Source of the DNA: Asaia bogorensis
Lineage (GTDB): Bacteria; Pseudomonadota; Alphaproteobacteria; Acetobacterales; Acetobacteraceae
Assembly (NCBI GenBank): GCA_945868845.1
Contig: CAMBMS010000002.1
Span: 1 to 64,000 of the forward strand
DNA length: 64,000 nt
Reading direction: 5' to 3'
Shown: in pieces, positions 51,802 to 58,318 of the stretch
Layout: each line of letters opens with the position of its first letter
Numbering within the stretch: position 1 is the first letter of the stretch
The notes under the pieces: generated by a model
What the model saw: the letters and a program-made list of their open reading frames with translations, nothing else
The model's database searches: none
What the model was told of the DNA's origin: nothing
Position numbers and translations under genes: made by a program

Positions 51802-53091
51802 ATGGCCTCAAAACACCCAGAAACCCTTGCCCTGCACGCCGCCTGGCGCGCCGACCCCGCGACCAATTCAGTCGCGGTGCCGATCTATCAGACCTCCTCC
51901 TATCAGTTCGACAGCGCGGAACACGCAGCCAATCTGTTCGGCCTGAAGGAGTTCGGCAACATCTATACCCGCATCATGAACCCGACGACCGATGTACTGG
52001 AAAAGCGCGTTGCGGCGCTGGAAGGCGGCGTGGCGGGCCTTGCGCTGGCTTCCGGTCAGGCAGCCTCGGCCTTTTCCGTGAAGAACCTGGCGCGGGCGGG
52101 CGATAATATCGTTTCCTCCACCGATCTTTACGGCGGCACCTGGAATCTATTCCAGAACCAGTTGAAGGACGAGGGGATCGAATGCCGCTTCGTCGACCCC
52201 GCAGACCCGGAAGCCTTCGCGCGCGCGACGGATGACAAAACCCGCGCCTACTACGCCGAAACCTTACCGAATCCGAAACTGATCGCGTTCCCTATCGCCG
52301 AGGTCTCGGCAATCGGAAGAAAGCTTGGCGTCCCGCTGATTATGGACAACACCGCCGTGCCGATGCTGGTGCGCCCGTTCGAACACGGCGCCGCCGTGGT
52401 GATGTATTCCACCACCAAATATATCGGCGGCCACGGCACCTCCATCGGCGGCCTCGTCATCGATGGGGGCAATTTCGACTGGGAAGCCCACCCCGCTCGC
52501 CAGCCGATGCTCAACCAGCCCGACCCCAGCTACCATGGCGCCGTCTGGACACAGGCCGTCAAAGGCATCGGCCCTGTGGCCTACATCATCAAGATGCGCG
52601 TGACGTTGCTGCGCGATCTCGGCGCGGCAATGAGCCCGTTCAATGCCTTCCTGTTCATCCAGGGGCTGGAGACTATGCCGCTGCGTATGCGCGAACACAG
52701 CCGCAATGCCCTTGCAGTGGCGAATTTCCTCGCCGGGCATAAATCCGTAGCGCGCGTGATCCATCCTGCGCATCACCAGGGCACGGCCGCCGAACGCACG
52801 GCGAAATACCTGCCGGACGGCACCGGCGGTCTTTGCGGGTTTGAACTTAAAGGCGGCACCGAAGCGGGCCGCGCCTTCATCAACGGGCTGAAGATGTTCT
52901 ACCACGTGGCCAATATCGGCGATGCCCGCAGCCTGGCCATCCACCCCGCCAGCACCACCCATAGCCAGCTCACGGCAGCCGAGCAGCTCGCCACCGGCGT
53001 CTCACCCGGCTATGTCCGGCTCTCCGTCGGCCTCGAGCATATCGACGACATTCTCGCCGATCTGTCGCAGGCACTGGATGCGGCCGCCTGA
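51802..53091 (+). CDS. metY: O-acetylhomoserine sulfhydrylase (aminocarboxypropyltransferase)
   Basis: PLP enzyme making homocysteine from O-acetylhomoserine and sulfide, direct sulfhydrylation route to methionine; 429 residues. PLP lysine is K206 in MYSTTKYIGGHGTSIGG. Cys/Met metabolism features are SVAVPIYQTSSYQFDSAEHA, YTRIMNPTTDVLEKRVAALE, and the metY-length insertion near 210-260. I looked for a SAM riboswitch in 51648-51801 and did not recognise one; a short GACGGAAAATTTCCGTC palindrome is present. Confidence 0.95.
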   Translation: MASKHPETLALHAAWRADPATNSVAVPIYQTSSYQFDSAEHAANLFGLKEFGNIYTRIMNPTTDVLEKRVAALEGGVAGLALASGQAASAFSVKNLARAGDNIVSSTDLYGGTWNLFQNQLKDEGIECRFVDPADPEAFARATDDKTRAYYAETLPNPKLIAFPIAEVSAIGRKLGVPLIMDNTAVPMLVRPFEHGAAVVMYSTTKYIGGHGTSIGGLVIDGGNFDWEAHPARQPMLNQPDPSYHGAVWTQAVKGIGPVAYIIKMRVTLLRDLGAAMSPFNAFLFIQGLETMPLRMREHSRNALAVANFLAGHKSVARVIHPAHHQGTAAERTAKYLPDGTGGLCGFELKGGTEAGRAFINGLKMFYHVANIGDARSLAIHPASTTHSQLTAAEQLATGVSPGYVRLSVGLEHIDDILADLSQALDAAA

Positions 53092-55334: not shown

Positions 55335-56312
55335 TCACTCCATACGCAGATCAAGCTTCTTCACCAGTGCGCCGTAGCGGTCGAAATCCTTGCGGGTCAG
55401 CGCGGCCAGTTCCGCCGGGGTGCCGGGGTTGGGCGAGAGGGCGAGCTTTAGAAAATGTTCCCTCAGGTCGGCCTGCGCGGCGACCTTGGCCATCTCGGCG
55501 GACATCTTGTTGACGATGGCCTGCGGCGTGCCGGCGGCAGCATAGAGCGCAAACCAGCCCAGGTAATCCAGTTCTGGATAAACTTCGCTCAGCAGCGGCA
55601 CGTTCGGATAAGTCGGGTGGCGCTTGCTGTCCAACACCGCCAGCAGCTTGCCCTTGCCGGCTGCGACGTGCGGGAAGGTGTTCGGATCGACATGGATCTG
55701 GTGCACACCGGCCAGGAAGTCGGCCAGCGATTCGCTGCCGCCGCGATAGGGTACGTGCAGGATATCAATGCCGGCGATGATTTTCAGCGCCTCACAGATC
55801 ATGTGGCCTTGCGAGCCAATGCCGGCGGTGCCCCAGCTCAGCTTACCGGGATTGGCCTTGGCGTGGGCCACCAGTTCCTGCACCGAATTCGCCGGCACCG
55901 AAGGATGTACCGCGATCAGCAGGGTGGCGTTGGTAAAGTTGGAAACCGGCATTAAATCCTTGAACACGTCGAATGCCACCTTACGCACATGCGGCAGGAT
56001 GGCGATCGAAAGGACGGGTGTGGCGATGAAGGTGTAGCCATCGGCCGGGGACTTGATCGCTGCCTCGATACCAATGGCGCCTGATGCGCCGCCCTTATTA
56101 TCGATAACGAATTGCTGGCCGACCGCCTTGGACAGCCTTTCGGCGAAGGGGCGCATGGCGTTGTCGGTGGAACCGCCAGGGGCAAAATTAACGATTATGC
56201 GCACCGGCTTGTTGGGCCAGTTCGCTGTCGTGTTCTGTGCCGATGCCGCACCGGTGCCCAACAGCAGTACAAAACTCGCTATCGCCACGCGGGCCCATGT
56301 GGTGCAAGTCAT
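55335..56312 (-). CDS. Tripartite tricarboxylate transporter substrate-binding protein (TctC/Bug family)
   Basis: 325-residue periplasmic binding protein. Signal peptide about 1-25 (ATWARVAIASF-type hydrophobic run ending ASAQN). Family landmarks are WPNKPVRIIVNFAPGGSTDN (about 32-51), VIDNKGGASGAIGIEAA, SWGTAGIGSQGHMICE and ILHVPYRGGSESLADFLAG. TctA/TctB membrane subunits are not adjacent, common for orphan Bug proteins. Ligand, often a carboxylate, cannot be predicted. Confidence 0.93.
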   Translation of the reverse strand: MTCTTWARVAIASFVLLLGTGAASAQNTTANWPNKPVRIIVNFAPGGSTDNAMRPFAERLSKAVGQQFVIDNKGGASGAIGIEAAIKSPADGYTFIATPVLSIAILPHVRKVAFDVFKDLMPVSNFTNATLLIAVHPSVPANSVQELVAHAKANPGKLSWGTAGIGSQGHMICEALKIIAGIDILHVPYRGGSESLADFLAGVHQIHVDPNTFPHVAAGKGKLLAVLDSKRHPTYPNVPLLSEVYPELDYLGWFALYAAAGTPQAIVNKMSAEMAKVAAQADLREHFLKLALSPNPGTPAELAALTRKDFDRYGALVKKLDLRME

Positions 56313-56422: not shown

Positions 56423-56926
56423 TCAGTCCGTGGGCCGCGCGTCATGATAGGGGGCGAGGGTTTGCGCCACGGCACTATCGGAGCTTATGTGGCCTTGGTC
56501 CAGCCAGATGATGAGCGAGTTCCATTGCTGCTGTACCGCGTCGTGATGCGTGGCGAGAACGAGAATTTCGGCGCCGCGAGCTCTGCCCTTTAGCCGCGCC
56601 AGCGCATTCCACAGCACCAGGGAAACGGCGAGATAGGGCACGTAGTCGCGCGCAGGCAGATGGAACAACGTCGGGTAGACCAGTCCTAGCACGGCGACCA
56701 TGATGGTGTTGAAAAGGCTGAGCCAGAGCGGGCCGAGCCAGGAGCCGCGATAGCGCAGCTGGATGTCCAGCCAGCCCACCGCGCCGATCAGCCACCGGAG
56801 CCGCACCGCGCCGGTAACATCGGCCCAGGCGGCATTTTGCAGTGGTCTCCCGATCATTTGAGTGGCATCGTCGTATACGAGGCCGGAAAATATAACCGAG
56901 ACGGGAACTGGGCCCCGGACGCTCAA
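56423..56926 (-). pseudogene. In-frame fusion of polysaccharide ABC permease N-terminus to ATPase C-terminus
   Basis: One open frame of 167 codons made from two genes. Residues about 30-107 match a KpsM/Wzm-type ABC-2 permease start (GWLDIQLRYRGSWLGPLWLS, DYVPYLAVSLVLWN). Residues about 112-163 match the end of a KpsT/Wzt-type ATPase (AEILVLATHHDAVQQQWNSL, IIWLDQGHISSD, LAPYHDA). Most of the permease, and the ATPase Walker A, signature and Walker B motifs, are missing. A single deletion across an adjacent permease-ATPase pair explains it. Transport is impossible; a stable chimeric product is conceivable. Confidence 0.8.
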
Positions 56927-57097
56927 AATAGGCGATGACGGGATTTCTTGCGTAGAATGTCAATTGGCGCTAATGGCTTAGGCTAAGTTGTTGACCGATA
57001 ATATGAGCGTCGGCCCGATTGCCGTCATGCTCTCCCGGCGCATGAGTATAAATCCGATTGCAGGACGCCGCGCTGGCAGGACGGAGGTTTGGGCTGG

Positions 57098-58318
57098 ATG
57101 CTATCTTTACGTGCTCCATACATTCGACGTTTGGATATTGGCTGTCTGACACGGGCCCTGGCGGGTGTGGCGCTGGTGTCGCTGTTGGCGGCCTGCGCTG
57201 GCGGGCCAAGCCCGCATACCGCGCGCGATGCCAATTATTACCGCTCTCACGCAAGGTCCAACTATTTGCCGCCGGGGCCCCCGGGGGATCCGTGGGGGCC
57301 CTATATTACCCAGGCGGCCAACCGGTTCGATGTGCCCGATACCTGGATCCGTGAAGTTATGCGGGTGGAATCAGGGGGCAAACTGTTTCGGAATGGCGCG
57401 CCGATCACTTCCCATGCCGGGGCGATGGGGCTGATGCAGGTGATGCCGGGCACGTACGAGGAGTTGCGCGAGCGGCATGAGCTGGGCGCCGATCCGTTTG
57501 ATCCGCAAAACAATATCCTGGCTGGCACCGCCTATATCCGGGAGATGTATGACATCTATGGCGCGCCGGGCTTTCTCGCCGCTTATAACGCGGGGCCGAA
57601 GCGGCTGGATGATTACCTCGCCAACCAGCGCGGGTTGCCCGATGAGACGCGGAGCTATATGGCGAAGATCGGGCCGAATATTTTGGATGTGCATCCACAG
57701 TTACGGTCGCAGGCGGAGAAGTATGCGATGAATACGATACCGGTGCGTGTGCCGCCGGGACTGCGCTATGCTCGCGGCGGAAGGCCCGCCGCGGTGCAGA
57801 TGGAACACGGGCGCGCGCCGCGCGAGGCGCCTATCGTGGCTAATACCTCGATGCAGGGGAATGCGCCCATGCAGGGCAACGCGCTAGGTTCGCGCGGGTC
57901 GGTGCAGTTGGGGCAGTTGGCGTCGCCTTCTTCTCCAGCGCGGGCGCCGATTTTGGTCGCGGCCCCAGCGCCGCAAATGGCACCGCAGCAGGGTGGGTTC
58001 CGGCTCGTACCGAGCGCGATCGCCGTGCCAATGGCTCCCAGCACCACCGCGACTGGAGAATCGGGGCAGTGGGCGATTCAGCTCGGCGCGTTTACTAACG
58101 AAAATCTTGCCCGCATGGCAACCGGCAGCGCCATTGCTAAGGTGAGCGATGCGCTGGGGCACGCGAAGGCGCAAATTTCCAGCGTGCGCCAACGCCAGGC
58201 AACCCTTTACCGGGCCCGCTTCGTTGGCCTCTCGCAGGCCTCTGCCATGCAGGCCTGCGAACGTCTGCAACGCGACCAAGTCACCTGCGTCGTCGTATCT
58301 CCCGACGCAAGGTCCTAA
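57098..58318 (+). CDS. Lipoprotein lytic transglycosylase with SPOR domain
   Basis: 406-residue envelope protein. Lipobox LLAAC (C33). SLT domain about 75-200 with catalytic E91 in VMRVESGG, GAMGLMQVMPGT and YIREMYDIYGAPGFLAAYNA. A flexible linker has MQGNAPMQGNA repeats and Pro/Ala-rich sequence, followed by a C-terminal SPOR domain (about 322-402; GQWAIQLGAFTNENLA) that binds denuded septal glycan. The ATG at 57098 has ACGGAGG at good spacing. Likely acts at division sites. Confidence 0.93.
   Translation: MLSLRAPYIRRLDIGCLTRALAGVALVSLLAACAGGPSPHTARDANYYRSHARSNYLPPGPPGDPWGPYITQAANRFDVPDTWIREVMRVESGGKLFRNGAPITSHAGAMGLMQVMPGTYEELRERHELGADPFDPQNNILAGTAYIREMYDIYGAPGFLAAYNAGPKRLDDYLANQRGLPDETRSYMAKIGPNILDVHPQLRSQAEKYAMNTIPVRVPPGLRYARGGRPAAVQMEHGRAPREAPIVANTSMQGNAPMQGNALGSRGSVQLGQLASPSSPARAPILVAAPAPQMAPQQGGFRLVPSAIAVPMAPSTTATGESGQWAIQLGAFTNENLARMATGSAIAKVSDALGHAKAQISSVRQRQATLYRARFVGLSQASAMQACERLQRDQVTCVVVSPDARS

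Follow-up and report, generated by a model that had tools for sequence, protein, structure and literature searches.

The open frame at positions 56423-56926 of the window (the whole 64,000-nucleotide stretch of Asaia bogorensis DNA analysed here) is very probably a decaying pseudogene of a Wzm/Wzt exporter. We propose that a Wzm/Wzt polysaccharide ABC exporter next to an SLT/SPOR transglycosylase gene was ancestral to the genus and that, in the window lineage, a ∼1.12-kb deletion, with short GC-rich direct repeats as its probable end points, took the permease from about residue 110 on and the ATPase up to ∼57 codons before its end. The two stumps would have come to share one frame by chance (one in three), and the remnant is most likely drifting. 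A sister species appears to have lost the exporter separately, through stop codons and a different deletion. A widespread polysaccharide exporter would in this way have been lost in one Acetobacteraceae genus, the different mutations in two sister species amounting to parallel gene loss, and the chimera itself is probably without consequence.

The frame is a single one on the minus strand, ending in a stop at 56423 and spanning ∼500 bases. Its start codon is ambiguous and could be either TTG at 56926 (167 amino acids) or ATG at 56857 (144 amino acids). Chimera residues 31-110 matched the NCBIfam Wzm/RfbD permease model NF050109 (profile positions 8-87 of 272; E value, 2.8e−18), and residues 105-162 matched the Wzt/RfbE ATPase model NF050108 (profile positions 185-242 of 244; E value, 3.3e−4). 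Both scores lie far under the curated cut-offs, as expected of fragments, and a Pfam search of the chimera gave no match. Residues 32-109 also aligned to chain A of PDB entry 9qfx, a solved O-antigen/lipopolysaccharide transport permease (E value, 1.4e−13). The halves align independently, each to its own gene of an adjacent pair in relatives, and represent pieces of both exporter subunits in their native order and strand. The original prediction, that a permease N terminus and an ATPase C terminus had been joined in one open frame, was therefore borne out by the split between the two models. The features of the locus are as follows.

56598..56926, minus strand: Wzm-type permease remnant (NF050109), N-terminal ∼85-110 residues, start codon uncertain.
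56594..56604, minus strand: deletion junction, inside GCGCTGGCGCGG, placed by nucleotide comparison with intact loci L056-L058 and with the congener genome G001.
56426..56597, minus strand: Wzt ATPase remnant (NF050108), last ∼57 codons.
57089..58318, plus strand: lytic transglycosylase (SLT + SPOR, by Pfam), intact neighbor and synteny anchor to intact exporter loci.
55335..56312, minus strand: TctC-family solute-binding protein (by Pfam), intact downstream neighbor.

Unlike Wzm/Wzt exporters, the chimera keeps only ∼85-110 permease and 57 ATPase residues, and most membrane helices are gone. Full-length ABC-2 permeases of the Wzm type comprise about 270-300 amino acids with several membrane helices, whereas the permease remnant consists of one clear membrane helix (hydropathy of 1.8 over GPLWLSLFNTIMVAVLGLV) and the region following it. 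It shares ∼52-62% identity with the closest intact permeases and has kept the conserved stretch RYRGSxLGPLW. The ATPase remnant aligns without gaps to intact ATPase C termini and includes the ILVLATH (H-loop) region; the regions that bear Walker A, the ABC signature, and Walker B in intact relatives have been deleted. As the ATPase motifs and membrane helices are missing, transport by the remnant is ruled out and, judged from what it encodes, it cannot transport anything.

Matches to the Wzm permease at E values up to 1e−10 were found in 232 of 299 family genomes and 83 of 102 genera, counts that include the window's genome and the congener. Many genomes carried a second match, from the ATPase half, ∼1.1 to 1.3 kb downstream of the first. 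Six intact loci were inspected, and in five (L056, L057, L058, L059, and L061) the pair adjoins the orthologous SLT/SPOR lytic transglycosylase gene; the exception is L060, where the pair is not beside it. The transglycosylase also adjoins the remnant in the congener locus (L055). Since the pair lies beside the transglycosylase in relatives, the remnant is the inherited locus, shortened in place. Intact orthologues thus occupy the same genomic position in L056-L059 and L061, the intact locus that the original prediction had suggested seeking in relatives, and its claim that a deletion within an exporter pair gave an in-frame join is upheld by them. No second copy of the exporter was found elsewhere in the window's genome, which is rated 100% complete. 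One other PF01061 permease is present there, paired with a different-looking ABC ATPase.

Comparison with these relatives shows the loss of exporter sequence at the level of aligned codons. The join lies around window position 56597, with permease sequence to about ...LVLWNALA and ATPase sequence from about RLKGRARGAEIL. The permease end had been correctly placed near SLVLWN in the original prediction, but the ATPase had been taken to begin at AEILVLATHHDA, and the actual join is ∼12 residues earlier. Measured between equivalent codons, the join points are 1,121 to 1,154 bases apart in six intact relatives (1,121 to 1,123 in the three closest), and therefore ∼1.12 kb was deleted in the window lineage. 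The sequence across the join reads AAT GCG CTG GCG CGG CTA AAG, compared with AAC GCC CTG GCG CAA on the permease side in the congener and AAG GCG CGG GCG CGG CTC on the ATPase side in relatives. Since a GCGC-GGCG-like sequence occurs on both sides, slippage between short repeats is a plausible deletion mechanism, and a short imperfect repeat, GCGC(T/G)GGCG, may have lain at the end points. We infer a single deletion event and a repeat-based mechanism.

The congener sample consists of one genome (G001), the metagenome-assembled genome Acetobacteraceae bacterium Baikal-deep-G67 from Lake Baikal, whose contig is identical to SHWN01000145.1. It keeps orthologues of the sulfhydrylase-like gene (51802-53091 in the window), the transglycosylase, the permease remnant, TctC, and the luciferase-like gene. 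Two flanking enzymes share 92 to 93% identity between window and congener, compared with 56% for the permease remnant. In the congener, the permease core carries four stops, which correspond to three TGG codons and one TAC codon in the window, and further stops lie upstream. Past the window's breakpoint, recognizable permease sequence is still present and is followed by decayed TctC sequence; the common ancestor therefore still had permease sequence there. The lesions in the two lineages are thus different, a ∼1.12-kb deletion in the window and stops plus another deletion in the congener. With the remnant as query, no other Wzm was identified in the window's genome or in the congener. The TctC orthologue of the congener (L055:4283-4909; tblastn, 49% over 248 amino acids) is shortened and decayed, unlike the intact TctC of the window, so decay of the neighborhood extends past the exporter in the congener.

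Codon-level selection, a check proposed in the original prediction, was relaxed in the two lineages. Pairwise dN/dS between window and congener was 0.41 for the remnant versus 0.04 to 0.06 for the two flanking enzymes, and a branch codon model gave an omega of 0.32 for the window and congener lineages compared with 0.095 for intact relatives (p = 0.003). Selection on the two-species lineage is therefore relaxed compared with that on intact orthologues. The omega common to both lineages also lies below 1 (p = 0.0007), which we read as constraint before inactivation and which could include some present constraint. For the window branch alone, where the sequence is too short for a firm test, omega = 1 and a freely estimated value fit equally well, and the background value was only borderline rejected (lnL of −1609.96 with window equal to background versus −1608.03 with the value free). 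The codon test had no power on the ATPase half. Among positions at least 95% conserved, this half has lost 4 of 11, more than any of 42 intact homologues (at most 2), and the permease half has lost 3 of 17, as many as one of 49 intact homologues; mean losses in intact homologues are 0.27 for the permease half and 0.26 for the ATPase half. The better retention of residues in the permease half was not significant (Fisher p = 0.13). Within the limited power of these comparisons, the substitution pattern points to a chimera that is not maintained by selection.

Neither half of the window copy contains a stop or a frameshift, and whether the copy is debris or yields a product had been left open in the original prediction. 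A small membrane-anchored protein, expressed from the chimera and kept by selection in a new lineage-specific role gained after exporter loss, would account for the 144 to 167 open codons, the clear membrane helix, and the retained RYRGSxLGPLW stretch, but we consider it very unlikely, given that the fusion is not conserved, constraint is relaxed, and conserved residues have been lost. A second frame on the same strand, of 164 codons, is also open in the region; in DNA this rich in GC, the open frame therefore carries little weight and is weak evidence for a product. Under simulated neutral drift, the 144 codons from ATG 56857 would be stop-free with a probability of ∼0.5 at 0.05 substitutions per site, 0.2 to 0.3 at 0.1, and 0.06 to 0.14 at 0.2, and the prior for an in-frame join by chance is about one third. 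The openness of the remnant is also what first drew attention to it, which is a selection effect. A crude promoter scan, a weak test, identified no sigma-70-like site at the locus, and a terminator scan there gave nothing informative. Debris is favored because of the stops in the congener, the relaxed constraint, the lost conserved residues, and the result of the promoter scan, and nothing in the sequence evidence supports a function for the chimera.

Misjoining of the ends of an intact pair during assembly is slightly less probable again. The conclusion rests on assembled sequence, but no intact exporter copy was found elsewhere in the genome, the ATPase piece is substituted at many conserved sites, unlike a misjoined working gene, and this locus has undergone its own decay in the congener. 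Small transporters in which the start of a permease is fused to the end of an ATPase could also form a natural family; this would suit halves drawn from two subunits of one transporter and is the least credible reading, as most of the permease and every catalytic ATPase motif are absent and the fusion aligned over its whole length in no other genome among ∼340 searched. A fusion conserved in many genomes, or one known protein behind both halves, had been named in the original prediction as evidence against a deletion; no other searched genome has the fusion, and two different proteins were matched. Scanning named genomes with P0001 likewise gave no match, and titles and abstracts on in-frame deletion chimeras and on Wzm/Wzt in Acetobacteraceae held nothing on this locus.

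The decaying exporter pseudogene resembles deletion-derived bacterial pseudogenes in having intact orthologues in place, relaxed constraint, and independent decay in a sister species. Its only unusual point is that the frame happens to span both stumps, a reminder that pseudogenization in GC-rich DNA can leave frames open. The adjacent SLT/SPOR transglycosylase (57089-58318) shares 70% identity between the congeners versus 92 to 93% for the two nearby enzymes, and its pairwise dN/dS of 0.15, compared with 0.04 to 0.06 in those enzymes, indicates faster evolution than its neighbors.
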